Origin: a virus
Virus record (IMG/VR): IMGVR_UViG_3300027901_000002
Span: 1 to 64,000 of that record
Length of the DNA stretch: 64,000 nt
Reading direction: 5' to 3' (one strand)
Position numbers and translations under genes: made by a program
Notes under the pieces: model-generated
Databases searched by the model: none
What the model was told of the DNA's origin: nothing
Seen by the model: the letters and a program-made list of their open reading frames with translations, nothing else
Part shown: one piece after another, positions 1-58,660 of the stretch
Layout of the letters: each line of letters begins with the position of its first letter
Numbering within the stretch: the first letter of the stretch is position 1

Positions 1-732
1 TGGGATTCCACAAAGCATTGCTTCAGTTGTTGGAGCACCCCACCCTTCACCACAATCAGTTGCTATGTAAGCGTTAACTGCTCTATAAACCATTGAAGTG
101 TCTGGAACGAAATCTCTCATCCACAAAATATTTTTAGGTAAATCTAAATCGTAGAACATTTTTGGAATACAATATCTATCGCTCCCCATTTTCATAATTA
201 GACAAACGTCTTTATCGTTGCCAAACTCCTCTTTAAACGCTTTCATCATCGTAACAAGATTTTTTCTTATGTCAACTCTTGCTACTGTAAAAAATTTAAA
301 CTTGAAATCTGTTTTAAGAACTAAATCGTGAGTTGGCCCGACTGGCGAAAACAATCCTCTTATGAATGGAAAGTTTACGACGTGAATTTTATCACTTTGC
401 GTTATTCTACTGAAAGATTCTTTACAGAAGGTAGATTGCGTCATAATAAAATGTGCTTGATGTAAAGCGTAAGACATATAATCAGGCGGTTTTTTTACTT
501 CTGTAACTGTGTAAAAACAATCTTGTGGCATAGTTGGTATTGCGTGCATAACTTTAAGAGGATTTTCTACTTTTGTTTTAGTCATAAAATATATTGGGTC
601 TTTTTTGTCCATAAAAGGATAAGGCGTTATTTTTACTTTATATCCCATATTGTGTAATATTTCAACGTACATTCTACCACAAATTCCATAACCGTTGCTT
701 CCAAAATTGTTAAGCCAATTTATGTCGATCAT
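1..732 (-). CDS. Glycosyltransferase, GT-B/GT4-like (3' end outside window)
   Basis: Probably transfers a sugar from a nucleotide sugar onto a glycan. The gene starts at ATG 732, overlapping the stop of the upstream glycosyltransferase (ATGA), and stays open to the window edge, so the C-terminus is missing. About 244 residues are visible. The stretch VARVDIRKN near residue 150 and ATDCGEGWGAPTTEAMLCG at the edge match the GT4 donor-site pattern, in which an E-G-x-G-x-P segment followed by T-E-A-M binds the nucleotide sugar. With the next gene it forms a tandem glycosyltransferase pair, consistent with decoration of virion or host surface. Acceptor and sugar cannot be inferred. Confidence 0.85.
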   Translation of the reverse strand, partial: MIDINWLNNFGSNGYGICGRMYVEILHNMGYKVKITPYPFMDKKDPIYFMTKTKVENPLKVMHAIPTMPQDCFYTVTEVKKPPDYMSYALHQAHFIMTQSTFCKESFSRITQSDKIHVVNFPFIRGLFSPVGPTHDLVLKTDFKFKFFTVARVDIRKNLVTMMKAFKEEFGNDKDVCLIMKMGSDRYCIPKMFYDLDLPKNILWMRDFVPDTSMVYRAVNAYIATDCGEGWGAPTTEAMLCGIP

Positions 733-1979
733 TCTTTAACCTCTGGAGTTATGTATCTATCGCTCCATTCTATTTTTATTGCGTCGCTGTCTATGAAACA
801 CGTTGGAACGTCTAATTTATCAAATATTTTCTTCCATCTCGGAACTATTACTTTCTTAGAACAATTCTTTTTAACCCAAAACATACCTCTCCTTCCCATT
901 TTCTTTCTTTCTTTTTCGTTTTCCAACATCCACAAAATTTTATCAACGAAATCTTTCATATCAACCCACGGTCTATAAATTCCTCTCTCCATTTTAGATT
1001 CTTTAATTTTTGCTATTAATCCTCTTTCTTCGTCTCCAGCAAACTCTGGCATAGTTGTACAATCACTAGCAACAAATGGTGTACCTGTTGCCATTGCTTC
1101 GCAAAAAGGTAGTCCGAATCCTTCACCACCGTGAGGAGAAATGTATAAATCTGCAATATTATAAAGTCTGTTTAAGAACATTGTTCCTACGCCAGTAGTC
1201 CATTGATTTTCTTCTGTGTAAATAATATTATCACTAATGTTTAAGCCGTGTATCAATTTTCTAACGTTTGGCTTTTCTAATACGCCATAGTCGTCAAAAT
1301 CAACGTGAAGATATAGCATAACATCGTCTCTAACATTACAAACTTCTTTAAAAGCAGAAAGTAGAAATTCTAAATTTTTCCTCCAAGAAGGTCTTCCAAC
1401 AAAAAGGAGTATTTTCTTACCTTTTATTTTTGGATTAAATCTATCTAACGCTTTTCTACTATATTCTTTTACGCTTAAAGGTCTAAAAACATCAGTATCA
1501 ACTATGTTATAAATCCAATCGTCTATTTCTATGTTGTATTTTTTTATAAAATCGTAGGCAAATTGACACATAGTAATTTTAACGTCTGGCGTTTGAATAG
1601 TACCAGCTGCTCTTAATAAAGCAGGTGCGTCGTGATTATCCCATGGAAACCAAGAAACCCAAGGAACCTGAATTGGTTTTCCTATTGGTATTCCAGAGTG
1701 GTGATGTATATCACCCATAGAAAAAACGCACATTGGATTTGTGTAATTTATAACCTTTTTTAATGTATGCGTAGTTCTAAGTTCTTCTCCTTCGTGAGCC
1801 CAAGTGACATAACCATCGTGTTCAAAAGGTCTACCGTATAAATATTGTTGACTTATAATGTGAAATTGGTAATAAGGCATTCCCGTTATCAATTCTTTTA
1901 CTTGTAAACCGTAAGAAAAAATAGTTTTTGGATCTTGACTTAAGACAACAATTCGCTGTCTGTCTGGATCTATTGACAT
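729..1979 (-). CDS. Glycosyltransferase family 4-like
   Basis: A 416-residue GT-B glycosyltransferase of ordinary family length. The C-terminal domain has KKILLFVGRPSWRKN (start of the donor-binding domain) and ISPHGGEGFGLPFCEAMATG, the GT4 donor signature containing the catalytic/ribose-binding Glu. GAGGAAAT lies 8 nt before the ATG and supports the start at 1979. Its stop overlaps the start of a second GT4 gene by 4 nt, so the two are translationally coupled. Expected to act in the cytoplasm on a lipid- or protein-linked glycan; substrate unknown. Confidence 0.9.
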   Translation of the reverse strand: MSIDPDRQRIVVLSQDPKTIFSYGLQVKELITGMPYYQFHIISQQYLYGRPFEHDGYVTWAHEGEELRTTHTLKKVINYTNPMCVFSMGDIHHHSGIPIGKPIQVPWVSWFPWDNHDAPALLRAAGTIQTPDVKITMCQFAYDFIKKYNIEIDDWIYNIVDTDVFRPLSVKEYSRKALDRFNPKIKGKKILLFVGRPSWRKNLEFLLSAFKEVCNVRDDVMLYLHVDFDDYGVLEKPNVRKLIHGLNISDNIIYTEENQWTTGVGTMFLNRLYNIADLYISPHGGEGFGLPFCEAMATGTPFVASDCTTMPEFAGDEERGLIAKIKESKMERGIYRPWVDMKDFVDKILWMLENEKERKKMGRRGMFWVKKNCSKKVIVPRWKKIFDKLDVPTCFIDSDAIKIEWSDRYITPEVKE

Positions 1980-2679: not shown

Positions 2680-4484
2680 TAAAATCCCCTCCTTCCAACT
2701 CTTATTAAAAATTCTTCTTCGTTGTTTATTTCGTCAACTACTTTTATTTTTCCCCAACTAACTTCTATTACTCCTTCTTCTTCTAAAACGCTAATTATGT
2801 GATTTGTTTTGCTCCTAGTTAAACCTAACGCTTCCCCTAAAGTTGTTTTATTTAATGAAGTTTGTTTTAGAACTTGTTTTAAAGTGTCGAAAAACAACCT
2901 CTTTTTACCTCCTTTTACATAAGAGAGCATGTCGTCGTACATCATATATTTTGCTTCTGGAACTAATCTTTTATAACCAGTAGAAGAGAATATAAATATT
3001 TCTCTTTTATTTTCTCTCTTTCTACCTCTTGGAGTTTTTTGGAAGCTTTGTCTCAACCTTCCAAACCCTTGTTTAATTTCGTCTTCTCTGTGAACTTTAA
3101 TAATAATATCTTCGTCCCACCCTAAAACGTTTCTTATTATTTCTACTTGAAAAGGTGGTATGTTAGGCTCGTGAAACACCACACAAGTATCACAATCTTC
3201 GTAGTAAGAATTACGAGACCTTAAATTGAAGAACGTAGCAAACACGTAATTGCTTATTTCGTCTTCTTTTAATTTTTTTCTTAAAACGCTTTGCACCCTT
3301 TTTGTTGCGCAAATTAAAACTTTTCCTTTTTTATACTCACAAATAGTTTTTAGTAATTCGTATAATCTTAAACCAGAAGAAGTAAAATCGTTTTTTCTTA
3401 TTATTGTGCTAGTAGGATACCTAGCTCCTATTAATTGATAAGTGTTTTTATATTCTATATCGAAACTTATTGATTTACAATCTTCTCCTAAAACGCTTTG
3501 CCAAGTTGGCAAATCAGCAGTTCCGTCTAAAGCAATAACTTTATTTGGCAAGGTTCTAAAAGAAGGTATGTTAGAAATAGTAAGGTGAATCATCCCTTTG
3601 TGCCACTGGTCGCTTTCGCTTTTATAAATCAACCACCTTAATTCTTGAACGTCTGGTCTTTTTTTATATATTTCAATTAAGAAGTGAATTATGTCCTTAG
3701 GTGGAGTTTTTATTCTTTCTTTTGTTATTAATTCTAATAATTTTCCATCGTACTCTTCTTTAAAATCATCAAAATCTAATCTTCTAATCGTAGAAATCAT
3801 TGAATATATCTTAGCGTAGTTTATTGCAATACTATTTGTTGCTAAAGATAATTCGTCTAACATTAATCTTAAAACGTAGCTTTCGTTTCTTTCTATTTCT
3901 GTTAATTGTAAAACGTCTCTAGTATAATCAAGATCTTTTTTTGTAATAGAAATTTGGTTGTAAATCGTGTTAGAAGGAAACTCGTCTATAATAATAACGT
4001 CGTAATAATTAAACAAGCATTTATTTTGCCACTTTTCGTATAAAAGCGTCTGTAACAAAGTTGGGATGTGAGAATGAACGCCAGCAAAACAAGTCGGCAT
4101 TTCTCTTATTATTCTTAAATTTTCGTAGTAAGGACATTTACTATCTTTGTACGAACAAAAATTTTCGCAAAACGGGGTTATGTTTATTCCTTGTTCAGCT
4201 ATTGCTCTATATTCTCTTGACAAACAAAGGTTTTTCCTAGACTGTAAATGTACAAGATTGTGAAAATCTATAACTTTTGATAGTTCTATGTTTTCTTCTA
4301 TAACTTTGTGATATGGAGCAAAGTACATCCAAGTAAATCCATCCTCGCATTCGTAAAGAGTTTTAAGAACTGTCGTTGTTTTTCCAGATCCCGTAAAAGT
4401 ATTAAAAATAATATTGCCAGTACCGTACCGAACGTGGTTTAAAGATTCTTGTTGAATATAGCTTCTTATTTTTCGTTTGTTCAT
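2679..4484 (-). CDS. SF2 helicase, XPD/DinG-like with FeS-type cysteines and C-terminal winged helix
   Basis: A 601-residue nucleic-acid-dependent ATPase. Walker A is FTGSGKTT (about residue 32), Walker B is IIIDEFPSN (DExx-type, about 173), and motif VI is IKQGFGRLRQ (about 485). Between Walker A and B are four cysteines spaced C-x18-C-x3-C-x6-C, at the position of the 4Fe-4S domain in XPD/Rad3/DinG helicases. The last ~60 residues read as a winged helix (GEALGLTRSKTNHIISVLEE), unusual for XPD. Likely a 5'-3' DNA helicase for viral replication or repair, encoded next to an XPF-type nuclease. A DNA-sensing or transcription role through the HTH is possible. Confidence 0.8.
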   Translation of the reverse strand: MNKRKIRSYIQQESLNHVRYGTGNIIFNTFTGSGKTTTVLKTLYECEDGFTWMYFAPYHKVIEENIELSKVIDFHNLVHLQSRKNLCLSREYRAIAEQGINITPFCENFCSYKDSKCPYYENLRIIREMPTCFAGVHSHIPTLLQTLLYEKWQNKCLFNYYDVIIIDEFPSNTIYNQISITKKDLDYTRDVLQLTEIERNESYVLRLMLDELSLATNSIAINYAKIYSMISTIRRLDFDDFKEEYDGKLLELITKERIKTPPKDIIHFLIEIYKKRPDVQELRWLIYKSESDQWHKGMIHLTISNIPSFRTLPNKVIALDGTADLPTWQSVLGEDCKSISFDIEYKNTYQLIGARYPTSTIIRKNDFTSSGLRLYELLKTICEYKKGKVLICATKRVQSVLRKKLKEDEISNYVFATFFNLRSRNSYYEDCDTCVVFHEPNIPPFQVEIIRNVLGWDEDIIIKVHREDEIKQGFGRLRQSFQKTPRGRKRENKREIFIFSSTGYKRLVPEAKYMMYDDMLSYVKGGKKRLFFDTLKQVLKQTSLNKTTLGEALGLTRSKTNHIISVLEEEGVIEVSWGKIKVVDEINNEEEFLIRVGRRGF

Positions 4485-4618
4485 TCATTTCCTTCCTCTT
4501 CTGGATATGGATTAAAAAACCACAATCCAGACAAACACCACGCTAAAGCTTGGCTTAAACTATGTGGTTTTGATTCTTTAGTTTCTGGAACTTGACCTAC
4601 CCAATCAATCAGACACAT
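4481..4618 (-). CDS. Hypothetical 45-aa protein
   Basis: A small frame beginning MCLIDWVGQVPETK and ending PYPEEEGNE. Its TGA overlaps the helicase ATG (ATGA), and its own ATG overlaps the end of the upstream gene by 14 nt. That tight coupling is the main evidence that it is translated. The helicase Shine-Dalgarno (AGGAAGG) lies inside its last codons. No recognised family. Confidence 0.55.
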   Translation of the reverse strand: MCLIDWVGQVPETKESKPHSLSQALAWCLSGLWFFNPYPEEEGNE

Positions 4619-4808
4619 TTTCAACAACTTCTAAGATTATAGTTCCTATATATTTATTTCTTTCTCCTTTATAGGTTATGTAGGTCGGTCTAACTGTAAA
4701 AGTTAAATTGAGAAACGATACGTCAAATTCTTTTTCTTCCAACATTTTTTTTAATATTTCTAAGAGGTTTGTCTCTTCGTAATCAACCCCTTCAAACGTG
4801 ATTTTCAT
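4605..4808 (-). CDS. Hypothetical protein, 67 aa
   Basis: Small acidic protein with alternating hydrophobic residues (TFTVRPTYITYKGERNKYIG) suggesting a beta-rich fold. Starts inside the last codons of the XPF-like nuclease gene, so probably co-translated with it. No family recognised; could be an accessory of the nuclease or helicase. Confidence 0.6.
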   Translation of the reverse strand: MKITFEGVDYEETNLLEILKKMLEEKEFDVSFLNLTFTVRPTYITYKGERNKYIGTIILEVVENVSD

Positions 4809-5568
4809 TTAACAACATCTCTTTATTTTTTTGTATAAATTTTGGCCCGAATCCTTTTACGTTTTCGAAAGCTCCAATAACGCCTTTCAAGTTTCCAGTC
4901 CTAGTATATAAAACACCTGATTCGATTATTGCCTTAAATATTTCCCAAGGACTGTTAAATATTTCTAACAAAGTATCTGCTTTTTTGTTAGAAACGTCTA
5001 ATAATTTGCAAATTATTTTCTTTTGGTCGCTCCAACCAGTGTATTTGTCGTCCAAAGTTTCGTGTATTTGAGGAGCTTCTCCACATTTCTTGTCCAATCT
5101 TTCTAATTCTCTTACTACCTCGTATATATCGTCAATTTGCCACATACAAATATCGTATTGACGAAGCGTTACTCTCATCGATTTGATCCATCCTCTCAAG
5201 TTTTTGTTGTGAGGATCGTCTGCCATCACAGATATAAACCCTTCTAAGAAGAGAAACTTCCATCCTTCGAAATACCTAGCCATCTTAGCAGCTTGATCGT
5301 GTAAAGATTTATCGAGCATAGAAGCTACAAAGTCTTGAGGTTTTTTCTTTTCAACTAAGAAAGTTCTATTCGTGTTTGTGTAATCACCAGCTCTTTCTGA
5401 AATTATTTGTCTGCCTCCACAATTAGGACATTCCTCGAAAGGTTTGAAATCAACTTTTTTACACGCTTTACAATGGTAAAATTTTATTTCCGCTTTAATG
5501 TAAGGAACTCCTAATTCTTCAAACGCGTCGAAAACGTATTGTTTTTCTCCGCTATCTATCACTATCAA
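4792..5568 (-). CDS. XPF/ERCC4-type structure-specific nuclease with zinc-ribbon insert and helix-hairpin-helix
   Basis: A 258-residue endonuclease of the XPF/Hef/Mus81 type without the helicase domain, as in crenarchaeal XPF. Active-site elements in order: IDSGEK at the N-terminus, GDY (about residue 61), and FLVEKKKPQDFVASM (about 72), corresponding to the E-R-K-x3-D core. A pair CKAC...CPNC at residues 33-51 is inserted before the GDY and would bind zinc; I do not know this insert in cellular XPF. The C-terminus carries helix-hairpin-helix sequences (DTLLEIFNSPWEIF, then VKGFGPKFIQKN) for branched DNA binding. Likely cuts flaps or forks together with the neighbouring helicase. Confidence 0.85.
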   Translation of the reverse strand: MIVIDSGEKQYVFDAFEELGVPYIKAEIKFYHCKACKKVDFKPFEECPNCGGRQIISERAGDYTNTNRTFLVEKKKPQDFVASMLDKSLHDQAAKMARYFEGWKFLFLEGFISVMADDPHNKNLRGWIKSMRVTLRQYDICMWQIDDIYEVVRELERLDKKCGEAPQIHETLDDKYTGWSDQKKIICKLLDVSNKKADTLLEIFNSPWEIFKAIIESGVLYTRTGNLKGVIGAFENVKGFGPKFIQKNKEMLLNENHV

Positions 5569-5764: not shown

Positions 5765-5970
5765 TTACAAAACTCTTTTTCTATTAAACCTAATAACGAT
5801 ATACTTCTACTTTCTACGTGGTAGAATTGTTGTTTATCCGTAGTTTCAGTAGGCTTCATAAATCCAACTGTAATTGTTGTATTTTTAGCTTCTTCTTCAG
5901 TAAAACACATGTGAAAAATCAAAAAATGTTTGTTGTTGTTTATTTTTAACGTAAATTCTTTTTTATCCAT
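5761..5970 (-). CDS. Hypothetical protein, 69 aa
   Basis: Small protein of mixed composition (FTLKINNNKHFLIFHMCFTE) with no recognised family. Starts 8 nt inside the end of the APS kinase gene and ends in an ATGA overlap with the next frame, so it sits in the same translational chain. Confidence 0.6.
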   Translation of the reverse strand: MDKKEFTLKINNNKHFLIFHMCFTEEEAKNTTITVGFMKPTETTDKQQFYHVESRSISLLGLIEKEFCK

Positions 5971-6499
5971 CCTTCATGCCGAACTCTTCTAATAATTCTT
6001 CGTAACTTTCGTGTGGGTATTTTCCTTCTGTTGTTATAACGTGATCCAATCCGTGTGGATTCGGTTCGTATACTTGAGTTATACCAGTAAAGTTTTTTAT
6101 TTCTCCATTTAAAGCTTTTTTGTATAATCCTTTTGGATCTCTACCAACACAGGTTTCTAATCTACATCGTAGATTAATTAAAACTAACCTCTTCCCAAGA
6201 AATTCTCTAAGAAATAATCTCATTGATTCTAGTGGCGTAATAAACGAACAAACAACGTAAATTCCAAATTCAGACACAATTTTTGCTACCCACGCTACTC
6301 TTCTTATATTTTCAAATCTATCGTCTAAAGAATAACCAAGATCTTTAGTTAAAAATTTTCTTGTTATATCTCCATCTAATCTTAATACTTGGTGTTCGTC
6401 TTTTTGTAATTTTTTAGCAAAGGCATCTGCTAAAGTGGTTTTCCCACTAGCAGACAAACCGTAAAACCAAAAAACTCTTCCTTTACCCAAAATATTCAC
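5963..6499 (-). CDS. cysC: Adenylylsulfate (APS) kinase
   Basis: Phosphorylates adenosine 5'-phosphosulfate to PAPS, the sulfate donor for sulfotransferases. At 178 residues it has normal CysC length. The P-loop GLSASGKTT is near residue 14, followed by LRLDGDITR (the D-G-D substrate motif), FENIRRVAWVAK, and GRDPKGLYKKALNGEIKNFT, all diagnostic of APS kinase. A sulfotransferase gene lies 2.5 kb away on the same strand (8993-9754), so virus-made PAPS probably feeds glycan or protein sulfation. No ATP sulfurylase is seen, so APS must come from the host or from outside the window. Confidence 0.93.
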   Translation of the reverse strand: MNILGKGRVFWFYGLSASGKTTLADAFAKKLQKDEHQVLRLDGDITRKFLTKDLGYSLDDRFENIRRVAWVAKIVSEFGIYVVCSFITPLESMRLFLREFLGKRLVLINLRCRLETCVGRDPKGLYKKALNGEIKNFTGITQVYEPNPHGLDHVITTEGKYPHESYEELLEEFGMKDG

Positions 6500-6632
6500 T
6501 CTTTTTTAGTTTGTCTCTTTCTATTATTATTGTATATCTTTCAAAAATCTCATCGTCTGATCGAGCCACCTCAACATAGTAGCCCATCCCTCTTAACTTT
6601 CTTGCTAGTTCCATTATTTTTTCCCATATCAT
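6483..6632 (-). CDS. Hypothetical 49-aa protein
   Basis: ATG at 6632 overlaps the primase stop as ATGA, and the frame ends 17 nt inside the APS kinase gene. The sequence (MIWEKIMELARKLRGMGYYV, ending RDKLKKSEYFG) predicts a helix followed by strands, and is rich in charged residues. No family recognised; reality inferred from coupling on both sides. Confidence 0.6.
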   Translation of the reverse strand: MIWEKIMELARKLRGMGYYVEVARSDDEIFERYTIIIERDKLKKSEYFG

Positions 6633-7669
6633 AACAAATTTGCAATCCTTTGGCATTTAAAACAAAACGGAGGACACACCCCTTGAGCCTTTAACTTTTT
6701 AGGATTAAAAACTCTGTTTTTAATGTAGGCGTATTGCGCTTGTCCTTCGCATATAGAATGTATTCCTTCCTCTTTTAGTAAAGCGACTAAGAGATTTACG
6801 CAATCGTCAAATTCTAATCTAACGACACTTTTGAAGTACTTTATTAGTTCCCACCTCAAATAATGTCCTACATAATCCATACTTAAAATGTGTTTTATAG
6901 GGTCGCAAAATTCTTCAACTTTCCAACCGTATTTATCAAGTATTTTACAAGCGTCTGGATTATCCTTCAATTGTATAAACAATTGTTTCTTCTTTATTTT
7001 ATCTTCGTCTATTTCAAAATTGTTAAGACTGAAAATTTCCTCCCCGTAAATAAACCTTTCTCTAAATCTAGGGGTTTCCGCTAAAGAATGAATTTTATTA
7101 TAAGAAAAACTTAATTCTTCTTCTTTTAATGGAATACAATAACATTTTCTATGCTCTCCAAAATTATAAGAATTTAGAACTCTCATCATTCTACTAGTGT
7201 CTCCAACAGTAGCTGGGTCTATATCAAGACCTACTTCTTTTCCTAAAGTAAGCATTCCATCCCTTAATTTTAAAGGGTGTCCTTGTGCTTTGACGATTCC
7301 GTAGAATCCTCCTCCACTGAAGACGTACTCTCGCATGTAATTTTTACTTTCACACCATTCAGCAAATCTTCTAATAGATTCGATACCTGCGTCCGTATAC
7401 GATTCAATTGTTTCTCCGTTAAGCTTGATTGTTTTGTAAGAATCCAAGTCAAGACTAATTCTGGTAATAATTGCGGTAGTGTAGTCAGGGCCCCATCTTG
7501 TATAGTTACCAAAACGGTCAAATTTTTCTTCTTGGTCTGTAAACCAATAGATAGAATGGTAGACGTTTGTAAACGACTTGAATCTATTGAAATCCTGTAT
7601 GGCGTCTCCTTTGGTAGCAAACATTCTTCTAAATGGTTTACGACCGCTAGCACCAGTTTCGATATACAC
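6629..7669 (-). CDS. DNA primase, archaeo-eukaryotic (PriS/PrimPol) superfamily
   Basis: Catalytic primase subunit of 346 residues. The catalytic acidic motif is RISLDLDSY (about residue 70), followed by FSGGGFYGIV (about 120) and GDTSRMMRVLNSYNF (about 155), the three conserved AEP motifs for metal and nucleotide binding. The C-terminus has a cysteine cluster (CPPFCFKCQ) that may bind zinc. The start is GTG at 7669, behind GGGAGG in the preceding gene. Probably lays down primers for the split PolB and clamp system encoded at 15-26 kb. No large primase subunit is recognisable. Confidence 0.87.
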   Translation of the reverse strand: MYIETGASGRKPFRRMFATKGDAIQDFNRFKSFTNVYHSIYWFTDQEEKFDRFGNYTRWGPDYTTAIITRISLDLDSYKTIKLNGETIESYTDAGIESIRRFAEWCESKNYMREYVFSGGGFYGIVKAQGHPLKLRDGMLTLGKEVGLDIDPATVGDTSRMMRVLNSYNFGEHRKCYCIPLKEEELSFSYNKIHSLAETPRFRERFIYGEEIFSLNNFEIDEDKIKKKQLFIQLKDNPDACKILDKYGWKVEEFCDPIKHILSMDYVGHYLRWELIKYFKSVVRLEFDDCVNLLVALLKEEGIHSICEGQAQYAYIKNRVFNPKKLKAQGVCPPFCFKCQRIANLL

Positions 7670-7672
7670 ACT

Positions 7673-7849
7673 TTATTCTTCCTCCCAAATGTGAAAATCT
7701 ATAACTTTTTCTGGCCACTTTTCTAATGCGTTTATAATCCATTTTTTAAATTCTTCAGCCAGTTTCTTTTTACAATCTTCTTCGTTTTCAAACGCATCAA
7801 CTCTTGTACCTATTTTCATTACTCTTAAAGTAGCAGACATTAATTTCAT
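7673..7849 (-). CDS. Hypothetical 58-aa protein
   Basis: Starts with ATG 7849 in a TAATG overlap with the Cas4-like gene stop and ends 3 nt before the primase GTG. It contains the primase Shine-Dalgarno (GGGAGG). Largely helical and acidic (FENEEDCKKKLAEEFKKWII). Position between two DNA-metabolism genes suggests an accessory role, but no family is recognised. Confidence 0.65.
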   Translation of the reverse strand: MKLMSATLRVMKIGTRVDAFENEEDCKKKLAEEFKKWIINALEKWPEKVIDFHIWEEE

Positions 7850-9003
7850 TATATTCCCCTAAATTCGTTTTCTATTTCTTTTAAACAATCCTCGTTTCTA
7901 CTACAATTTACGCATCTATATTTGTTGTACTCTGGTCTCGTTTTCATTCGCCTAATCGGATAATACTTGTCTTCGTTTCTATAAAACCACGATTGTCTTA
8001 TTTCGTTTATTCTAAACAAAACCGTTTTTAAAGAAGTGTAATTAAATTTCTTTTTTACAACAACAGGGTTTTGTATGTCTGGATCTCCAGTAAGAAAAAT
8101 TATACCAAGTATTATATCTCCGTGTTCGAAAGATTGAAACTTTTGTGTTTTTTGGTTAAATCTATAAAGTTTATGGTCTATATTTCCTATATATTTTCTT
8201 TTCTCGTCGTCTATTTCTTTTTGTTCTTCTTTTGTTGTTCCTAAACCAAATTTTTTCCAATTTCCATCTTCGTCTAAGTACAAATTTTCGATAATAAACT
8301 TTCTAACTCTTTCGTCTTTAAAGTTCCATCCTCGTTTTAAGAGATACAGTAAAGCGTAGAAGTGTACTTCAAACATAAACTTAGGTGGAACTTCTACTGA
8401 AGTTTCGTCTGCAATATGTTTTCTTCCTTTTAAAACTTTGTTTGGAATTTTTCCAGTTTTGTAATCAGCGACGTATATACCTTCGTCTAAACTCTCGTCT
8501 ATTTCTAAAAACACTGTGTCAATAGTGCCGTATATCTCAAACTCTTCGCTATAATAAAATTCTTCTACTTCAACTGGCTTAAAATATTTCCAAACCTTAA
8601 ATTTGTTTCCATTGAACAATTGATATAGATATAAAAATCTATCTGCGTGTATACATGCAAACTTCCAAAATATTCTTTGTAACACTGCAACCTCCCTGTC
8701 ATATTCTGGAGTTATAGACATACAAATACCATAGAAGTAATACGTAACTGGGTTGTTTTCAGTTCCAATTGTTGGATTAATTTCTAAAGTATAAAGATAA
8801 TCAAAGTCTAAATTATCCCAAAAACTAGAAAATATAAGGTGCGTATCTGTTCCAACATCACATCTTTTTGTGAAGTCCTCTGGTTTCTCTCCTAATACGT
8901 ATTTAGTATAAAATAGATAAGGACAAAAGTAAGAATGAGTTTTTATCTTACTTTTTGCTACATGCGGCATTTTTTTGTAATGATAATATCCTCTAGGTTC
9001 CAC
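7849..9003 (-). CDS. PD-(D/E)XK nuclease, Cas4/RecB-like with FeS-type cysteines
   Basis: A 384-residue exonuclease-type protein. IYVADYKTGKIPN (about residue 173) is the D-x(n)-(D/E)-x-K core, preceded by EFEIYGTIDTVFLEID. One cysteine near the start (FCPYLFYTKY) and three near the end (YRCVNCSRNEDCLKEI) give the C...C-x2-C-x5-C arrangement of the 4Fe-4S cluster in Cas4 and AddB-like nucleases. No CRISPR array or Cas1 is present, so I read it as a viral recombination or end-processing nuclease, as in other archaeal viruses. Confidence 0.82.
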   Translation of the reverse strand: MEPRGYYHYKKMPHVAKSKIKTHSYFCPYLFYTKYVLGEKPEDFTKRCDVGTDTHLIFSSFWDNLDFDYLYTLEINPTIGTENNPVTYYFYGICMSITPEYDREVAVLQRIFWKFACIHADRFLYLYQLFNGNKFKVWKYFKPVEVEEFYYSEEFEIYGTIDTVFLEIDESLDEGIYVADYKTGKIPNKVLKGRKHIADETSVEVPPKFMFEVHFYALLYLLKRGWNFKDERVRKFIIENLYLDEDGNWKKFGLGTTKEEQKEIDDEKRKYIGNIDHKLYRFNQKTQKFQSFEHGDIILGIIFLTGDPDIQNPVVVKKKFNYTSLKTVLFRINEIRQSWFYRNEDKYYPIRRMKTRPEYNKYRCVNCSRNEDCLKEIENEFRGI

Positions 9004-9754
9004 TTTTCTCCTCTTCTTTTATAATTTTCCAGTATCTATTACTAATATCTTCGGTTTTTTCTATCATATATTCGTCTAACCAATTTTTCCAGTCGTTTTC
9101 TATTCCTTTTCTTCTCCACTCGTCTCTTCTTATTTCCTTTCCTGGTTCTCTTCCGCTTTTATTTTTGAAAGAATGTTTTATACATAACCTCCTTATACTA
9201 GTATCTGGAACTTTTGAATCCAAAAACTTGCAAATTGTTTTGACTTCTTTGTAAGTATCATTCACTAACCAATGATAACAAGTCCAAACATAAGTTTGTT
9301 TCACGCTAGGATCGTATTTTTTAGTACTCATCCCCCTCACCATAAGCGGAAATTGTCTTTCGTTGTGGCGCCACGGTAATTCCAAATTAAAGACTGCCTT
9401 AACTGCTTCTAAATCAGAAGGAGCGTCTTTAATAATTTTCAACCCTCGACCTGGTGGTTTGTATCGTTGATGAAATGTCCAAGACACCATTCTATCTCTT
9501 GGATTCCTAACTATTCCAATAACTTTGTAATCCACTGGTTTTATGTTTTCGTACAATTCCTCTCTAATAACGTGGTGAAATTTCACTATCCTCCGCTCAG
9601 CAAACCTTTCTCTCACTGTAGTAGCACAAGTAGGCAAGTCCTTAAAGTCAAGTTCTGCGCTAACTTTCATCCCAAACAATTCAGACAAGAGATAATGAAG
9701 CCATCGAGAACCAACTCTCATTTCACTAATTATTATTATTTTCATTTTTATCAC
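8993..9754 (-). CDS. PAPS-dependent sulfotransferase
   Basis: Transfers sulfate from PAPS to a hydroxyl or amine acceptor. The 5'-phosphosulfate-binding loop region is SEMRVGSRWLHYLLSEL (residue 10 onward) and the 3'-phosphate motif is VIGIVRNPRDRMVSWTF (about 82), matching the sulfotransferase fold. At 253 residues it has usual length. It starts with GTG at 9754 (GTGA overlap); an ATG follows at 9745. Neighbours are two methyltransferases and a GT2, and an APS kinase is encoded nearby, so a sulfated, methylated glycan is a coherent inference. Acceptor unknown. Confidence 0.85.
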   Translation of the reverse strand: MIKMKIIIISEMRVGSRWLHYLLSELFGMKVSAELDFKDLPTCATTVRERFAERRIVKFHHVIREELYENIKPVDYKVIGIVRNPRDRMVSWTFHQRYKPPGRGLKIIKDAPSDLEAVKAVFNLELPWRHNERQFPLMVRGMSTKKYDPSVKQTYVWTCYHWLVNDTYKEVKTICKFLDSKVPDTSIRRLCIKHSFKNKSGREPGKEIRRDEWRRKGIENDWKNWLDEYMIEKTEDISNRYWKIIKEEEKSGT

Positions 9755-10452
9755 ATTTTTTTTATGTAAATACTTCCCCCTGTGCTTTTACAAACCAAGG
9801 GAAAATCTTCTTCTAATAGAATTTTTAATTTGTGTTGTATATAATGGTTAAAAAACATTATCTTAAAATTTGTATTACTTTCTAAAAAATATCTTAATTC
9901 AAATAATTCTGTATATCCCCTCCCCTCTTCTATATATTGTGGTATGTATATCCAGGGATAGAAAATGTCGTGTATGTGAATATAAACGCCTTCGTTTAAT
10001 ATAGGTAATATTTTATGTAAATAAAATCCAACGTCTTCCTCCTTATGCGAAGTATCAATAAATAACAAATCGTTTCTTTTAAGAGAATCAAAAATTCTCA
10101 AATTAACGTTTTCTAATTTATTATTAATTTTACCTTGATTGTTTGGTATATATCTTTTCATTTTGGTGTCGTTTTTGTCTATAAAAAGACAATCTATGTT
10201 GTTGTTAAAATACTTTTTATTAACAAACATTAATATCTTAGACGAATTACCAACACCTACTTCTATAACTCTTTTTGGTTTTATTAAACGCAAAAAACAA
10301 TAATAAAAAATCCCATCACAATAAGAAAAATCACTGTGAGGAAAAAAAGTTAAGAAATGTTGTGGCATTTCGTCATAATATCTTTTAAATTGTGCCAATA
10401 AATGTACTTGCGTTTGTACGTTTAAATCTATATTTTCTCTATAAGACACCAC
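9751..10452 (-). CDS. Class I SAM-dependent methyltransferase
   Basis: A 233-residue methyltransferase. VIEVGVGNSSKILMF (about residue 65) is the SAM-binding motif I, followed by CLFIDKNDTKMK and LLFIDTSHKEED, as in the Methyltransf_24 family found in glycan clusters. HIHDIFYPWIYIPQY is the usual post-core region. It overlaps the next methyltransferase by 25 nt; the start is GTG. Probably O-methylates a sugar of the glycan made by this cluster. Confidence 0.8.
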   Translation of the reverse strand: MVSYRENIDLNVQTQVHLLAQFKRYYDEMPQHFLTFFPHSDFSYCDGIFYYCFLRLIKPKRVIEVGVGNSSKILMFVNKKYFNNNIDCLFIDKNDTKMKRYIPNNQGKINNKLENVNLRIFDSLKRNDLLFIDTSHKEEDVGFYLHKILPILNEGVYIHIHDIFYPWIYIPQYIEEGRGYTELFELRYFLESNTNFKIMFFNHYIQHKLKILLEEDFPLVCKSTGGSIYIKKM

Positions 10453-11111
10453 AATTCAGCCGCTATTTTTGGGTGAAATTTAGTTCCTAAAAAAACAAAT
10501 AGTTCGATATCGTCTCTAAAATAATATTGCATTTCTTTAAGTGGAAGAGGTTTAAATAAAAAACCACCGTTATCAATAACTTCGTATTTTCCTCCAGTTT
10601 TCCACTCTAATTCTTCTATAAATTGATAATCGTACATGTGCCTATGTCCACTCTTAATGTCACTTTCAGAAAGGTCGTAAGGAGTTTTTATTAATCCAAG
10701 TTCAGCTCCTAATATTCTATTAAGAGACCTAGCGTTTGGATACAAAATAAATATTTTTCCTTTTGGATTTAAGAGTTTATATAAATTATTAAGAACGGCA
10801 TAAGGAGAATGTAAATGCTCTATTGTTCTAACCATTAACACAAAATCGTATTTATGGCTTGTGTGTTTTACAAATCCTTCTATATCACACGTTACATACA
10901 TAGTGCCAGGTATTTCTTCTTGGCTAAGAAAATTTGTGTCAACTAACACCATAGTTTTGAAATTTAATTTTTTTGCCATGTCTCCGCTCATTGCACCTAA
11001 ATCCAACGCGTCCATATCTGGAGTTATAAATTCGTTTATTTTATCAATTGTCATTTCCCAAAGTTTTTTTTCGTAAATTGTAGTGTTGTATTCTGAAAAA
11101 TCCCCTTCCAT
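10428..11111 (-). CDS. SAM-dependent methyltransferase (Methyltransf_11/23-like)
   Basis: A 227-residue methyltransferase with motif I LDLGAMSGDMAKKL (about residue 37), an acidic TMVLVDTNF strand end, and RTIEHLHSPYAVLNNLYKLL (about 95) followed by NPKGKIFILYP, which is typical of the type 11/23 families. Part of the 9-12 kb glycan-modification cluster between another methyltransferase and a GT2 gene. Likely small-molecule or sugar methylation rather than DNA. Confidence 0.82.
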   Translation of the reverse strand: MEGDFSEYNTTIYEKKLWEMTIDKINEFITPDMDALDLGAMSGDMAKKLNFKTMVLVDTNFLSQEEIPGTMYVTCDIEGFVKHTSHKYDFVLMVRTIEHLHSPYAVLNNLYKLLNPKGKIFILYPNARSLNRILGAELGLIKTPYDLSESDIKSGHRHMYDYQFIEELEWKTGGKYEVIDNGGFLFKPLPLKEMQYYFRDDIELFVFLGTKFHPKIAAELWCLIEKI

Positions 11112-11115
11112 ATAA

Positions 11116-11814
11116 TCACCAATAACTGTTTACAACTTCTTTAACTGTTTCGTCGAAATTGTTTTGTAAATTTTTTATTAATCTATCGTTTGATGTATGA
11201 TTCAAAATCTTCTTCTCTTGCTTCTCTTTTATTGAATGTCTTCCTCCATGATGTTTATGGTCTAACTTTTTAGGATGAAGAACTACTTTTTGTTTAAATA
11301 CTCTTGCAGCTAACATTAAATAATAAGAATGTTCTCCTAAATAATAAGACATTCTTTCGTCTATACCTCTTCCTTTTATTAAGAAAGGTCTGTAACAAAC
11401 TTCTATTGTTCCATTTCTACCAGTGTGTCTACCGTTTTTATCTAATATTTTAACTAAAAATCTAAGAGTAATTTTTTTAGGATCGTGATCTTTATAATAA
11501 TCGAGTATTAATTGAGCAAAATTAAGAGGATAAATAACGTCCATAGGAATCCTCACAAATAAGTCGTTCTTTGCTTCAAATATTGATTTGTTAGTCATTT
11601 TAGACATGTGGAAATAAACGTTTGGTGTTTTTTCTATTCTAAAAAATCTAAAACCGTAACTTTTTACTACTTGTTCTATATTATCTGTACTACTGTAGTC
11701 TACAACTATAATATCGTCGCTTTGTCCTTTTATACTATCGAAGACCTGTTTAACCCATTTAATTCCTCGTTGTTTTATTATATCAAAAGTGTAAAACGAA
11801 AAAGTAATTTTCAT
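11116..11814 (-). CDS. Glycosyltransferase family 2-like
   Basis: A GT-A fold glycosyltransferase of 232 residues. The N-terminus ITFSFYTFDIIKQRGIKWVK and DDIIVVDYSSTDNIEQVVK are the nucleotide-binding strands of GT2 enzymes, but the later D-x-D is weak (RIPMDVIYP). A long basic C-terminus follows (HPKKLDHKHHGGRHSIKEKQ). Its ATG overlaps the stop of a DMIL-tailed gene as ATGA. Likely works with the methyl- and sulfotransferases downstream. Confidence 0.75.
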   Translation of the reverse strand: MKITFSFYTFDIIKQRGIKWVKQVFDSIKGQSDDIIVVDYSSTDNIEQVVKSYGFRFFRIEKTPNVYFHMSKMTNKSIFEAKNDLFVRIPMDVIYPLNFAQLILDYYKDHDPKKITLRFLVKILDKNGRHTGRNGTIEVCYRPFLIKGRGIDERMSYYLGEHSYYLMLAARVFKQKVVLHPKKLDHKHHGGRHSIKEKQEKKILNHTSNDRLIKNLQNNFDETVKEVVNSYW

Positions 11815-12278
11815 AATATCATATCACTAGAAAATGTTTGCTTTTTAAATATATCGTTCCAATTATACAACAAATGGTACTTTTCTAATATTTGTTTTGG
11901 CGCTTCTAAAGAGGCCAAAAGAAAACCGTAATCGTTATTGATTTGAAAAAATAACCAATAACTATCATATACGTCGTAGACTTTTGCAGAAACTGTATTT
12001 GTTTCTAAAAAGTTTAGTATCTCTACGATTTTATTTAAATCGAAATATCCATCTCCAAACTTCAACATTTGCTGTCTATCGTCGCGTTTTGGTATTTCGT
12101 TAATTAAATATTCTTCTATGTCTTCGTTTCCGTATTCCTTAAAGAATTTCTTCAAATCGAGTAATCCTACAACTGTTCCAGCGCTTGCCGTTATTACGGC
12201 TTCGTTCGTGATTGGTTCTAAAGTTTCTCCGAAATGTACATTAAACCGCTTTCTTGTAGATTCCTTCTTCTTTATCAA
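11811..12278 (-). CDS. Hypothetical protein with C-terminal DMIL tail
   Basis: A 155-residue protein of unknown function, probably starting with TTG at 12278 inside the HNH gene (38-nt overlap) because no in-frame ATG lies near. Mixed alpha/beta composition (ITASAGTVVGLLDLKKFFKE). It ends FSSDMIL-stop, one of five proteins in the window with the tail [FI]-x-x-D-M-[IV]-L. The tail codons are GAT ATG ATA TTA followed by TGA in an ATGA overlap. The tail suggests it binds the same partner as PolB and the large clamp-loader subunit. Confidence 0.65.
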   Translation of the reverse strand: MIKKKESTRKRFNVHFGETLEPITNEAVITASAGTVVGLLDLKKFFKEYGNEDIEEYLINEIPKRDDRQQMLKFGDGYFDLNKIVEILNFLETNTVSAKVYDVYDSYWLFFQINNDYGFLLASLEAPKQILEKYHLLYNWNDIFKKQTFSSDMIL

Positions 12279-13166: not shown

Positions 13167-13414
13167 AAATTATCCTCGTTGTATAGTTTTCCTACCATTA
13201 TTCCTTTTACGTCTTTTGCTACTATCAAATCCATACCCATTACTTTTGTTCCAACCGTTTTAGCTGTCGTGTCTTTTATTAAAACTAAACTATCTAAAAT
13301 TTCCAATTCTACTTGTTCGTACTCGTCGTCGTTTATTATTAAGTGGGTAGGTTCAAAACCAAATCTATGTTTAAATTTCTCCTTTAAGAAGAAAATTTTT
13401 TTTAAATAACTCAT
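13163..13414 (-). CDS. Hypothetical protein, 83 aa
   Basis: Unrecognised small protein. FGFEPTHLIINDDEYEQVEL and GTKVMGMDLIVAKDVKGIMV look like an alpha/beta fold. The latter resembles short phage proteins of virion-associated or toxin-antidote type, but that is weak. ATGA overlaps on both sides, following a DMIL-tailed methylase. Confidence 0.65.
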   Translation of the reverse strand: MSYLKKIFFLKEKFKHRFGFEPTHLIINDDEYEQVELEILDSLVLIKDTTAKTVGTKVMGMDLIVAKDVKGIMVGKLYNEDNL

Positions 13415-14280
13415 AATATCATATCGTCTCCTATTTTATCTTTTTTATCGTAATAATCCATCGTTGGAGTTTTCTTAGGATCGAAATTCCTAATCACGTA
13501 TTCGATATCTCTCGACTTTTCTCCTCCAACACAATAAGAAGAAGCGTTTACTCTCTCCACTTCTTGATAATACCAGTCTTCGTGGTGAAAATATTCTTTA
13601 CTATCAACTGTGAGAACGAAAAGAGCGCGTTTTAAATCGTAAAGTATTTCTCTTAAATCCTCAAAGTCTTGCGCGCCCCAAGCGTTTTCGTCTGTATCCA
13701 TTCCAGACATCTCTTCGTAAAGCTTTCCTCCTTTGAAATAAGGAGGGTCTAAGAAAAAAAGAACGCCTTCTTTATCTGCTCTCTTCATTAGATCTCTGAA
13801 GTCTTGACACTCAAATTGTACGAACTTTATTCGCTCGTAATACTCGTTGATGTTTTTTAATTTGTTAAGATAAGGGTGATGCCAGTGTTCTTTTCCAGTA
13901 AACGACATTCCGTGGTAGCAATTGTTCATTTGAGAGAACGAGTGATGATTCACGTAATAAAATCTCATAGCGTCTTCTATTGGATTTTCCGCTATGTTGT
14001 CTTTAAACTCGTCGAATAATTGTCGACTATCTATTCCACCCTCGTTTCTACAATAATCAACGAACTCTCTTCTTGCACTCTTAATTACTTTCCACATGTT
14101 CACGAGTCGAGAGTTTATATCGTTGAACACTTCTATTTCAGAAGGAACTTTGTTAAACAAAACCACACCAGACCCTCCAAACACTTCTATGAAAGTTGTG
14201 TGGACAGGGAAAGGCAAAAAATGTTTAAGGAGATTGTATTTTCCTCCGTACCAACCAATAATGGATTGACCTTTTCTCAT
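13411..14280 (-). CDS. dam: DNA adenine-N6 methyltransferase (Dam/D12 class)
   Basis: Methylates adenine in DNA. IIGWYGGKYNLLKHFLPF (residue 6) and FIEVFGGSGVVLF (about 32) form the SAM site, and VLFFLDPPYFKGG (about 165) is the catalytic DPPY motif of alpha-class m6A methylases. At 289 residues it is normal length. Unusually it ends IGDDMIL-stop, the shared C-terminal tail, possibly tethering it to the replication machinery. No cognate restriction enzyme is adjacent, so it probably protects or marks viral DNA. Confidence 0.92.
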   Translation of the reverse strand: MRKGQSIIGWYGGKYNLLKHFLPFPVHTTFIEVFGGSGVVLFNKVPSEIEVFNDINSRLVNMWKVIKSARREFVDYCRNEGGIDSRQLFDEFKDNIAENPIEDAMRFYYVNHHSFSQMNNCYHGMSFTGKEHWHHPYLNKLKNINEYYERIKFVQFECQDFRDLMKRADKEGVLFFLDPPYFKGGKLYEEMSGMDTDENAWGAQDFEDLREILYDLKRALFVLTVDSKEYFHHEDWYYQEVERVNASSYCVGGEKSRDIEYVIRNFDPKKTPTMDYYDKKDKIGDDMIL

Positions 14281-14423
14281 TTTATAAAATCTTCTACTAT
14301 TGATCTAATAATAAAACCACACATACAACTTCTACAACCAAATACCTGGCGTCCTTCTTTTGTTCTTCCAACTTTTATTACTTTTTCGCTTCCACACACT
14401 GGACAATATTCAACTTCTTTCAT
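14277..14423 (-). CDS. Zinc-ribbon miniprotein, 48 aa
   Basis: YCPVCGSEKVIKVGRTKEGR then FGCRSCMCGFIIRS gives a classic C-x2-C...C-x2-C zinc ribbon, as in small transposase-type or TFIIS-like ribbons. ATGA overlaps join it to the SLOG gene upstream and the Dam gene downstream. Probably nucleic-acid or protein binding. Confidence 0.75.
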   Translation of the reverse strand: MKEVEYCPVCGSEKVIKVGRTKEGRQVFGCRSCMCGFIIRSIVEDFIK

Positions 14424-14812
14424 AACAATATCAACTTCTTTTCCCAATCTTCGTGGTATTTCTTAAAATGTTTTATTGTATTTTCAGTGCCTCCTGTTCT
14501 ATCTGGAGATATAATAGCAATTAAATAGTCTAAAGGTTCCTTTGCTATTTTCTCGTTTCTTTTGTAACATTCTTGTACAAATTCGTGATAAGGTAACCAA
14601 CCTCTTGGTATATTTTTTGATTTTACTTCTAATTCTATGTTGTGTTCTTTAGCTATTTTTCTTGCAAAATAGTCTCCGCCTCGTGTACAATCACCAGTAA
14701 CTATTTTTGTTACTTTTCCAAAATTATGTGTTAACCAGCCTAATTTTGCCATAAGACTGTAATAAGCTTGTTCGTCGTGTCTTCTTCTGCTACCAACTAT
14801 TCCAATTATCAT
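14420..14812 (-). CDS. SLOG-family (YAcAr/DprA-like Rossmann) protein
   Basis: A 130-residue nucleotide-binding domain. IIGIVGSRRRHDE at the start, KIVTGDCTRGGDYFARKIA in the middle and RNEKIAKEPLDYLIAIISP near the end match the SLOG/DUF2493 pattern found in phages and defence or nucleotide-signalling contexts. Family members bind nucleotides or ligands; the reaction is unknown. It lies between zinc-ribbon miniproteins near the deoxyribosyltransferase-like gene. Confidence 0.75.
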   Translation of the reverse strand: MIIGIVGSRRRHDEQAYYSLMAKLGWLTHNFGKVTKIVTGDCTRGGDYFARKIAKEHNIELEVKSKNIPRGWLPYHEFVQECYKRNEKIAKEPLDYLIAIISPDRTGGTENTIKHFKKYHEDWEKKLILL

Positions 14813-14976
14813 TCTTCAAAATCTCCTATACTTATTTTAAATCCACAGCCGTGCACGTTTATGCCGAAGTAATGTCCTTGACAAACGTATTCCATATCTA
14901 TCGCGTCGTAAATTAATGGCAGTCCGCATTTCGGACAATAATAAAATCCAAACCTTCTATCTTTTTCTAACTTCAT
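14809..14976 (-). CDS. Zinc-ribbon miniprotein, 55 aa
   Basis: Begins MKLEKDRRFGFYYCPKCG and continues with two further cysteines (YVCQGHYFG, VHGCGFKISIG), a likely single-zinc fold. ATG at 14976 overlaps the end of the next upstream gene, and the stop overlaps the SLOG start as ATGA. Confidence 0.7.
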   Translation of the reverse strand: MKLEKDRRFGFYYCPKCGLPLIYDAIDMEYVCQGHYFGINVHGCGFKISIGDFEE

Positions 14977-15136
14977 TTTTAAAATCAATCCAAATTCTTT
15001 CTTTATAACACACTTCGTCTTTAAAAATCATACCACAATAATCACATACATACAAATTAAAACAATGATCTGTTATTTGATCGTCGTCCCAACACCACAT
15101 AAATTTCATTTCTTCTCCGCATTTACACTTTGTCAT
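14957..15136 (-). CDS. Zinc-ribbon miniprotein, 59 aa
   Basis: MTKCKCGEEMKFMWCWDD then YVCDYCGMIFKDEVCYKE gives two cysteine pairs of ribbon type. I start it at ATG 15136, which lies inside the last codons of the Dam-like gene, rather than at the Met three codons upstream. Unknown role. Confidence 0.7.
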   Translation of the reverse strand: MTKCKCGEEMKFMWCWDDDQITDHCFNLYVCDYCGMIFKDEVCYKERIWIDFKNEVRKR

Positions 15137-15623
15137 AACTTTCACAAATCGTTTTTCCTTTTTTACAATTGTATTTATTGTTAAAAATTACGATAGCAGA
15201 AGGGAAAGGAGCGCTTGATGGTTCTCCTCCGTTTCCATAAGAAGGAAGAGTTCTATTCCAAAATTTTAACCTTCCTTTTATGAACCTTATGGTTCCTTTC
15301 ATACAATAATCGTGCCACCATCGAGTGTCTGTTCTCGCTGGTACTAAACAAACAACAATAGCTCCTTTTTGATATTCTTCGTACGCTTTTTTTATCCACT
15401 TACCAATGCTTCTTCCGTAAGGGGGGTTCATAAACACTATTTCAAAGTGCCAACTCCTAGACAGTCCATCTTCTTCTTTAGTGAAGTATCTATTACATTT
15501 GTGGTTTTCGTGAGTTGCGCAAGGGTCTAACGTGAAACCGAATTCTTCGTTTAATTCGTCGAAAAGCCATTGAGGAGTTTCCCACTCGTCTGATTTAGAG
15601 CTAAACAAGGATTTATTTATCAA
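15123..15623 (-). CDS. Phage-type DNA N6-adenine methyltransferase (Dam, Pfam DNA_N6_MTase-like)
   Basis: A 166-residue enzyme of the small phage Dam family. FSSKSDEWETPQWLFDEL at the N-terminus, FTLDPCATHENHKC, and IVFMNPPYGRSIGKWIKKA (the NPPY catalytic motif) are all diagnostic. It is a second adenine methylase beside the D12-type enzyme, so viral DNA may carry m6A in two contexts. Confidence 0.93.
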   Translation of the reverse strand: MINKSLFSSKSDEWETPQWLFDELNEEFGFTLDPCATHENHKCNRYFTKEEDGLSRSWHFEIVFMNPPYGRSIGKWIKKAYEEYQKGAIVVCLVPARTDTRWWHDYCMKGTIRFIKGRLKFWNRTLPSYGNGGEPSSAPFPSAIVIFNNKYNCKKGKTICESYDKV

Positions 15624-15831
15624 TTTCGTTCATTCTTCTATTTAAATCAGAAATCCAAAACTGGATTAGTTTTATTTCTGCTCTTAGACTAGGTTTTGGT
15701 TCGTCTACAAACCCTTTCATGGAGCAACCCATTATACAATCTACGGGTTTTTCTCCAAACACTTCTTCTTCTAATTTTTTTACTCTTTCTTCTAAATCAC
15801 TCATTTCTTTTCCACAACATTTATCGTTCAT
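15613..15831 (-). CDS. Hypothetical coiled-coil protein, 72 aa
   Basis: Contains a short coiled coil (SDLEERVKKLEEEVFG), a few cysteines (KCCGKEM, CIMGCSM) and a helical C-terminus (FWISDLNRRMNEI). Its ATG overlaps the PolB C-terminal gene stop in ATGA. Possibly oligomeric; function unknown. Confidence 0.6.
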   Translation of the reverse strand: MNDKCCGKEMSDLEERVKKLEEEVFGEKPVDCIMGCSMKGFVDEPKPSLRAEIKLIQFWISDLNRRMNEIDK

Positions 15832-18222: not shown

Positions 18223-18455
18223 GGTAAATTGCCTTTTTTTCTTCTCTCCATTTCTTTTTCTATGATTTTAATTCCTTTACTAATAAGAGAATTTTCTTTT
18301 TTCAATTTAAAAATTTTTTCTCTGTTCCCTTTTCTTTTGTTTAACTCTTGTTTGTACATTTTTTCGAGTTCTTTGTCTGTTGCGTTGTAAGCTTTATTCC
18401 AAAATTGACCAAGAGCAATTTCCCTAGCCAATCCTTCTAAGCCTAACTTTTTCAT
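18219..18455 (-). CDS. Hypothetical helical protein, 78 aa
   Basis: Strongly helical and basic (KELEKMYKQELNKRKGNREK, then KGIKIIEKEMERRKKG). Starts inside the end of the PolB N-terminal gene (32-nt overlap) and is the first gene of the block that splits the polymerase. No family recognised. Confidence 0.6.
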   Translation of the reverse strand: MKKLGLEGLAREIALGQFWNKAYNATDKELEKMYKQELNKRKGNREKIFKLKKENSLISKGIKIIEKEMERRKKGNLP

Positions 18456-26274: not shown

Positions 26275-27055
26275 CTTTTTCTTCCGTTTTTTCTTTAAGC
26301 CACTGTTGATATTGAGAAGTTTCTTTCTCGTTTTTCAAGGCTAGTTCACCAGTTTCCTCTTCGTATTCTTTGTAAAAAGGATCGAATTTTGCTCTTTCTA
26401 CATCCAACCAATTTTTGAAGGCTTTTGTTTCTTTACCGTGGTAGACAGCTTTCTTATTTTTGTTAGATTTCTCAAATTGTTGATATAACTGATGTCTAAC
26501 TTCTTTTGTCGATTCGTCTTTTTTTGGTATAAGACTAAGCTCTTCGCTTCTTTCTAATTCGTCTAAAACGTCGCTTGTTCTATCTGGATCTTCGTCTTTA
26601 ATAACTTTTTGCTGTCTAAACAAAATTTCGTTTGCGACATGAGAAGGTGCCTCTAATAAATCCTCACTAGGTTCGTTAGTTAAATCGTAAATTTCGTCGT
26701 CTCTAAATTCTTCTTGTTCTGGTTCCTCAAATCCTTGCTCGTCTAAAGGAATTTCGTCAATTGTTTCTGCTTTTCTTATTGTAAATTTTTTCTTTTTCGG
26801 CTCTCCTTTTCCTTTTCTAAAGACGTAACATCCACCATAAGGTAAATCTGGATGTTCTGCAGTTCCACAATAAATCCATCCGACTGCTCCTAACCTATCA
26901 AAATAATCTAAAAACGCTTTTATCGTATCTCTTGTATCTAGTTGTATAGCACCTATTGGGCCTCTATACCCCTGCGCTCTCCTTTCTTGAATTGTTTGTT
27001 CTCTTGCTTCTCTTAATATCGCTTGTGGCGTTACAAATCTGTACAAATATGCCAT
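26267..27055 (-). CDS. Hypothetical acidic protein, 262 aa
   Basis: The N-terminal ~90 residues look folded (KAFLDYFDRLGAVGWIYCGT). After that comes a long charged, probably disordered part rich in Glu, Asp and Lys (EEPEQEEFRDDEIYDLTNEP) and a Lys/Glu-rich helical end. No family recognised. It starts 25 nt inside the dNMP kinase gene and precedes clamp-loader genes. Confidence 0.6.
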   Translation of the reverse strand: MAYLYRFVTPQAILREAREQTIQERRAQGYRGPIGAIQLDTRDTIKAFLDYFDRLGAVGWIYCGTAEHPDLPYGGCYVFRKGKGEPKKKKFTIRKAETIDEIPLDEQGFEEPEQEEFRDDEIYDLTNEPSEDLLEAPSHVANEILFRQQKVIKDEDPDRTSDVLDELERSEELSLIPKKDESTKEVRHQLYQQFEKSNKNKKAVYHGKETKAFKNWLDVERAKFDPFYKEYEEETGELALKNEKETSQYQQWLKEKTEEKDE

Positions 27056-30540: not shown

Positions 30541-30576
30541 CAGTATCCACTGTAATAAATAAAAAAATATGTTTGT

Positions 30577-33228: not shown

Positions 33229-33259
33229 TTTTCTTCCTTTTCTTTTTTTATTTTTATAA

Positions 33260-58658: not shown

Positions 58659-58660
58659 CT

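Follow-up and report, generated by a model that had tools for sequence, protein, structure and literature searches.

Virus-encoded APS kinases (CysC) have been described as AMGs from freshwater, hadal, and vent environments; they cluster with other viral CysC proteins, and the viral cysC genes have been read as contributing to assimilatory sulfate reduction (PMC10914622, PMC9529941, PMC9789665). Among cellular enzymes, the nearest counterparts of the proteins considered here are the bifunctional PAPS synthases, the cytosolic SULT-type sulfotransferases, and the NadM-type NMN adenylyltransferases. The HxGH superfamily of nucleotidyltransferases includes the Sat-type ATP sulfurylase.

We analyzed a window of 64,000 nucleotides, taken from the start of a viral record of 99,014 bases (G000). 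A sequence-only reading of the window had proposed that an APS kinase gene and a sulfotransferase gene, close to glycosyltransferase and methyltransferase genes, form one virus-encoded module for PAPS synthesis and sulfation. We favor, with a probability of about 0.6, a dispersed gene set for sulfate activation and sulfation in a probable archaeal contractile-tail virus, in which the first enzyme would be a compact HxGH protein. The relevant features are listed in Table 1.

Table 1. Features of the window bearing on sulfate activation and sulfation
Feature	Position	Strand	Basis
GT4 glycosyltransferase; possible maker of the acceptor glycan	729–1979	-	PF00534, E 1.2e-23; 64–67% identity to kin
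APS kinase (CysC-like), 178 aa	5963–6499	-	PF01583, TIGR00455, complete lid; 4/5 related records, one clade
PAPS-dependent sulfotransferase, 253 aa	8993–9754	-	PF00685, SULT fold; PAPS-binding motifs invariant in 5/5 related records
Two methyltransferases and GT2 adjoining the sulfotransferase	9751–11814 (methyltransferases, 9751–10452 and 10428–11111; GT2, 11116–11814)	-	PF13578, PF13489, PF00535
DUF2061 small membrane protein, 69 aa	17470–17679	-	PF09834, 38.6 bits (cut-off 23.1)
Compact HxGH nucleotidyltransferase, 127 aa; candidate APS-forming (ATP sulfurylase-like) enzyme	41206–41589	-	APS-kinase linkage of homologues; NMNAT/PPAT-like fold

The virus, its relatives, and the two PAPS-related genes

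The record encodes a terminase, a maturation protease, a tail sheath, and baseplate proteins. It also encodes RFC-like AAA, XPD-like, and ERCC4-type proteins and shows a weak TFIIB match; the TFIIB and PCNA candidates have no PDB relative. Its gene content makes an archaeal virus with a contractile tail probable, and we infer an archaeal host. An alignment of the capsid protein found no relative in 84,980 bacterial and archaeal genomes; therefore, a host could not be assigned. Queries with the terminase and the capsid retrieved four related records, G001 (60 kb), G002 (99.5 kb), G003 (76 kb), and G004 (66 kb). When the APS kinase or the sulfotransferase was used as a single query sequence, scans of IMG/VR returned no relatives, which reflects a limit of exact-peptide seeding, and searches of annotated phage proteins yielded only five APS kinases and no sulfotransferase.

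Several of the five related records are fragments. Nevertheless, a common gene order is kept, which runs through the sulfotransferase, a PDDEXK nuclease, a primase-like protein, the APS kinase, an ERCC4 nuclease, a helicase, a small ORF, GT4, and a second glycosyltransferase; in G000 the last of these lies outside the window, at the other end of the record. The sulfotransferase is syntenic in all four relatives, and the APS kinase in three of them. In the exception, the fragment G003, the slot between the primase-like gene (4407–5447) and the gene of the ERCC4 protein (5943–6785) contains only small ORFs, and the record carries two sulfotransferases. With its empty APS-kinase slot beside a retained sulfotransferase, it lends no support to the earlier suggestion that host PAPS is limiting.

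The ORF assigned to the APS kinase was confirmed on the minus strand. It matches PF01583 with an E-value of 7.5e-45 (153 bits against the Pfam cut-off of 21.1) and the NCBI equivalog model TIGR00455 (apsK) with 160.9 bits against a curated cut-off of 138.7. The nearest solved relative is 2yvu, a probable adenylyl-sulfate kinase (E 1.3e-36). Sequence and alignment contain all of the elements of the family, namely the P-loop (GLSASGKTT), the DGD motif (LDGD), the N-I-R-R residues, and the mobile lid of the KGLYxxA...FTG type (KGLYKKALNGEIKNFTG), and the full lid and the FTG/MTG motifs are retained by the kinase and its kin. By family and motif, the product is thus predicted to be a full APS kinase. 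In a tree restricted to the HxGH-linked kinases and those of the group, which therefore gives no indication of where in cells the viral gene came from, the kinases of the group formed one clade (support 100/99) with L049 as the nearest row. Therefore, the gene was probably present in the ancestor of the group and later lost in G003.

The sulfotransferase ORF is likewise found on the minus strand, with two possible starts, a GTG at 9754 or an ATG nine bases downstream. It matches PF00685 with an E-value of 6.9e-18 (65.4 bits, cut-off 22). The best Foldseek matches of its AlphaFold model (pLDDT 84) are SULT enzymes with bound PAP, including SULT7A1 with PAP at an E-value of 2.6e-7, and a profile built from the five sequences of the group retrieves the same enzymes by sequence (E 7e-12). 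No variation is seen among the five related records in the 5' PAPS loop (SEMRVGSRW), the histidine of a KxHH motif, or the 3'-phosphate motif (VRxPxDRxxS). Family, modeled fold, and motifs therefore identify the predicted product as a PAPS-type sulfotransferase. For both genes, the match scores are well outside what chance would give.

Additional sulfotransferases of other families were observed in the relatives, where they adjoin tail or baseplate genes. A second sulfotransferase of the PF17784 family lies near tail-spike genes in G002 (4250–4819), G003 (16580–17134), and G004 (27018–27575), and G002 has two further sulfotransferase-like ORFs within 14220–16240.

The neighboring genes that had been drawn into the proposed module are all real, and the GT4 gene is syntenic in all five related records. 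However, the two methyltransferase genes and the GT2 gene are missing from the syntenic place in all four relatives. They are contig-specific cargo and hence weak evidence for a single module. The module as first described was also incomplete, in that it overlooked the HxGH and DUF2061 genes, both of which are linked to APS kinase elsewhere.

Several other features of the window were recorded. The family B DNA polymerase appears to be split, with the exonuclease and polymerase parts in two ORFs on the minus strand (18424–19698 and 15828–17492) about 0.9 kb apart, and it is split likewise in G001 and G004. Three unrelated genes share an end motif, TGATATGATATTATGA or CGATATGATATTATGA, on the minus strand (11811–11828, 13411–13428, and 15828–15845). 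The motif lies across gene junctions, where it overlaps both a stop and the following gene's start; it is commoner than in shuffled sequence and is possibly a translation-coupling signal. Three large adjoining ORFs of 764, 883, and 842 aa occupy 28246–35788 (minus strand); two of them match G002 over short stretches only, and the other is unmatched in the relatives. At 56955–59743 (minus strand), a protein with a von Willebrand A domain (weak PF13519 match) and a neighboring 360-aa protein are encoded, and both are matched in G002 and G003.

The compact HxGH protein and its linkage to APS kinase

The HxGH protein contains the motifs GRWSPFHLGHK ... PDIEMVAIGRGVGY ... ISGTKIR. It is 63% identical to a protein of G002 and was found in only two of the five related records, several of which are fragmentary, and its gene lies 35 kb away from the APS kinase gene. 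Its best matches in both sequence and fold are NMNAT and phosphopantetheine adenylyltransferase (PPAT), not ATP sulfurylase; the structure model is uncertain at residues 74–87. ATP sulfurylase was not among the best 50 Foldseek matches of the model. Therefore, the proposed sulfurylase function has no support from the fold and is based on gene linkage. Matches to PF01747 over the cut-off were absent from G000 to G004, and one HxGH homologue scored 14.9 against a cut-off of 24.3. The NMN adenylyltransferase models also missed their cut-offs on this protein (TIGR01527 and PRK01153, 22.5 against 181.2 and 24.5 against 127 bits). We also weighed a likeness between its GRGVGY block and the GRDHAG loop of ATP sulfurylase but did not retain it, as it is unproven.

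When IMG/VR was scanned with the HxGH sequences of the window and of G002, 75 viral loci were obtained, which fall into two kinds. The HxGH protein is either a compact form of about 130 aa, which stands alone or forms part of a fusion (L049 to L084), or a long NadM-type protein (L085 to L123). An APS kinase was located within 2.5 kb in 32 of the 36 compact loci, eight of which were fused, and in none of the 39 NadM-type loci (Fisher p 4e-17). After clustering at about 90% identity, the linkage was 17/20 and 0/31, respectively. Compact cassettes occur in the viral loci L049 and L061, and in L049 three consecutive genes encode an HxGH protein, a sulfotransferase, and a DUF2061-like/APS kinase protein. 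DUF2061 was found near APS kinase or HxGH genes in 11 viral loci, and in L049, L055, L061, and L067 the APS kinase has a DUF2061 or DUF2061-like domain as a neighbor or as a fusion partner.

The same association extends to cellular genomes. The scan of 84,980 genomes gave 80 HxGH loci from Omnitrophota, Planctomycetota, Patescibacteria, Acidobacteriota, Bacteroidota, Marinimicrobia, and others, including one locus labelled as from a marine group III archaeon; an APS kinase was nearby in 53 of the 80, and in the same ORF in 27. The canonical ATP sulfurylase (PF01747) was detected in 5 of the 46 genomes with HxGH-APS kinase loci. CysD exceeded the cut-off in two, and lower-scoring, possibly fragmentary matches were present in four more, one of which also has PF01747. 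In about 36 of the 46 genomes neither was detected, although the MAGs are incomplete and such absence is weak evidence. Because the compact protein is so often fused or linked to APS kinase, because other ATP sulfurylases are frequently missing, and in view of what HxGH enzymes generally catalyze, we infer that it makes APS; the virus could thus start from sulfate and ATP to produce PAPS.

Two further groups of loci were noted. Short APS-kinase-like partners without the KGLYKKA lid, which either pair with or are fused to HxGH proteins, occur in the genome loci L145, L149, L153, L155–L159, and L161, in L146–L148, L152, L160, L162, and L174, and also in L077. Such pairs of an HxGH protein and a lid-less kinase may therefore have a second substrate. 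Stand-alone HxGH proteins of about 150 aa, with no APS kinase nearby, occur in L178, L190, L191, and similar Dadabacteria loci.

Proposed pathway and alternatives

In the favored reading, the HxGH protein would adenylylate sulfate with ATP to give APS. The APS kinase would then phosphorylate the 3'-OH of APS to give PAPS, a step strongly supported by its family, and the sulfotransferase, as its family and fold indicate, would transfer the sulfuryl group from PAPS to an acceptor. As a guess, the acceptor may be a glycan of the virion or of the host surface, possibly built with the conserved GT4 enzymes of the virus; the conservation of the GT4 genes makes a glycan acceptor plausible. The DUF2061 protein might tether the enzymes or aid the supply of sulfate, which is also a guess. 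Sulfation of S-layer proteins had been offered as an analogy. Sulfated archaellin glycans have been claimed in Halobacterium, and the claim was not reproduced by a later study (PMC6591318); therefore, we set this analogy aside as evidence.

The APS kinase could instead be an AMG for assimilatory sulfate reduction, with viral PAPS feeding a host PAPS reductase and leading to sulfide and cysteine. This is the published reading of viral cysC, the reductase could come from the host, and one bacterial HxGH gene (L171) adjoins a PAPS reductase gene. However, no PAPS/APS reductase (PF01507) over the cut-off was found in 31 viral records, comprising G000, its kin, and 26 other records with APS kinase and HxGH genes, which argues against that reading. 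All five related records and many of the other viruses carry sulfotransferases; with matches defined by E-values of at most 0.01 for PF00685 or at most 0.001 for PF13469, they were found in 16 of the 26 APS kinase/HxGH viruses and in 3 of 24 NadM-type records (Fisher p 0.0004, the records not all being independent). We therefore consider assimilation improbable for this virus. The pairing of a PAPS-making kinase with a PAPS-using sulfotransferase, as initially proposed, holds up: the two are conserved together in related viruses that lack a detectable PAPS reductase.

A different possibility is that the kinase and the sulfotransferase cooperate, while the HxGH protein is an unrelated adenylyltransferase of NAD salvage or of the CoA type and the APS is supplied by the host. 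The top matches to NMNAT and PPAT and the distance between the genes agree with this, and they count against the favored reading, as do the presence of the HxGH gene in two of five records, the lid-less kinase partners, and the many Dadabacteria-type genes with no APS kinase nearby. However, dozens of loci place a compact HxGH gene next to an APS kinase gene or join the two in one ORF, none of the long NadM-type phage proteins shows such linkage, and the score of the protein is far below the NMNAT equivalog cut-offs (24 against 127 bits); we regard an unrelated role as unlikely. The APS-kinase fold can also serve a different substrate, as reported for the Campylobacter capsule kinase Cj1415. 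A kinase of this sort, acting with the HxGH protein, might make a different activated nucleotide, which would suit the lid-less short partners (L077, L156) and an HxGH substrate that is itself only a candidate assignment. The complete lid and FTG/MTG motifs of the window kinase and its kin, its score over the apsK equivalog cut-off, and a PAPS-type sulfotransferase in every member of the group leave this idea only a slim chance. It is least probable of all that the genes are independent cargo with no functional set. No single operon unites them, about 36 kb separates the outermost of the four candidate parts, and G003 lacks the APS kinase, but the synteny and co-occurrence in four of the five related records and the compact cassettes elsewhere (L049 and L061) argue against this reading.

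A broader proposal can be advanced tentatively, at somewhat less than even odds. The compact HxGH protein may be an uncharacterized minimal ATP sulfurylase with about 130 residues that differs from both Sat and CysND and in many cases is joined to APS kinase in a small PAPS synthase; viruses would carry it with DUF2061 proteins and sulfotransferases to sulfate surface molecules, and many viral cysC genes now annotated as sulfur assimilation would serve sulfation. If true, the initial step of sulfate activation would gain a new candidate enzyme, present in many bacteria with no recognized ATP sulfurylase. Common viral metabolic genes would then be re-read from nutrient assimilation to the chemical decoration of viral or host molecules.

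Comparison with known systems

Compared with the viral cysC genes reported previously, the kinase of the window is accompanied by sulfotransferase, HxGH, and DUF2061 genes, and no PAPS reductase was detected. None of the three papers describing those genes (PMC10914622, PMC9529941, PMC9789665) contains the word "sulfotransferase". The sulfotransferase of the window shares the fold and the PAPS-binding motifs of the cytosolic SULT-type enzymes (PF00685) at about 20% identity. Three relatives of the virus have second-family sulfotransferases (PF17784).

The HxGH protein has the GRxxPFHxGH motif and the fold in common with the NadM-type NMN adenylyltransferases, whereas its scores lie far under the family cut-offs, it has its own PDIExVxxGRxVGY block, and it is linked to APS kinase. 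The bifunctional PAPS synthases, in which ATP sulfurylase is fused to APS kinase, provide a further parallel, in that many bacterial HxGH relatives likewise combine an adenylyltransferase and an APS kinase in one chain. However, the adenylyltransferase half in these proteins is an HxGH domain of about 130 aa with no PF01747 match over the cut-off. In the window, the HxGH protein, whose activity is only predicted, and the APS kinase are encoded by separate genes.
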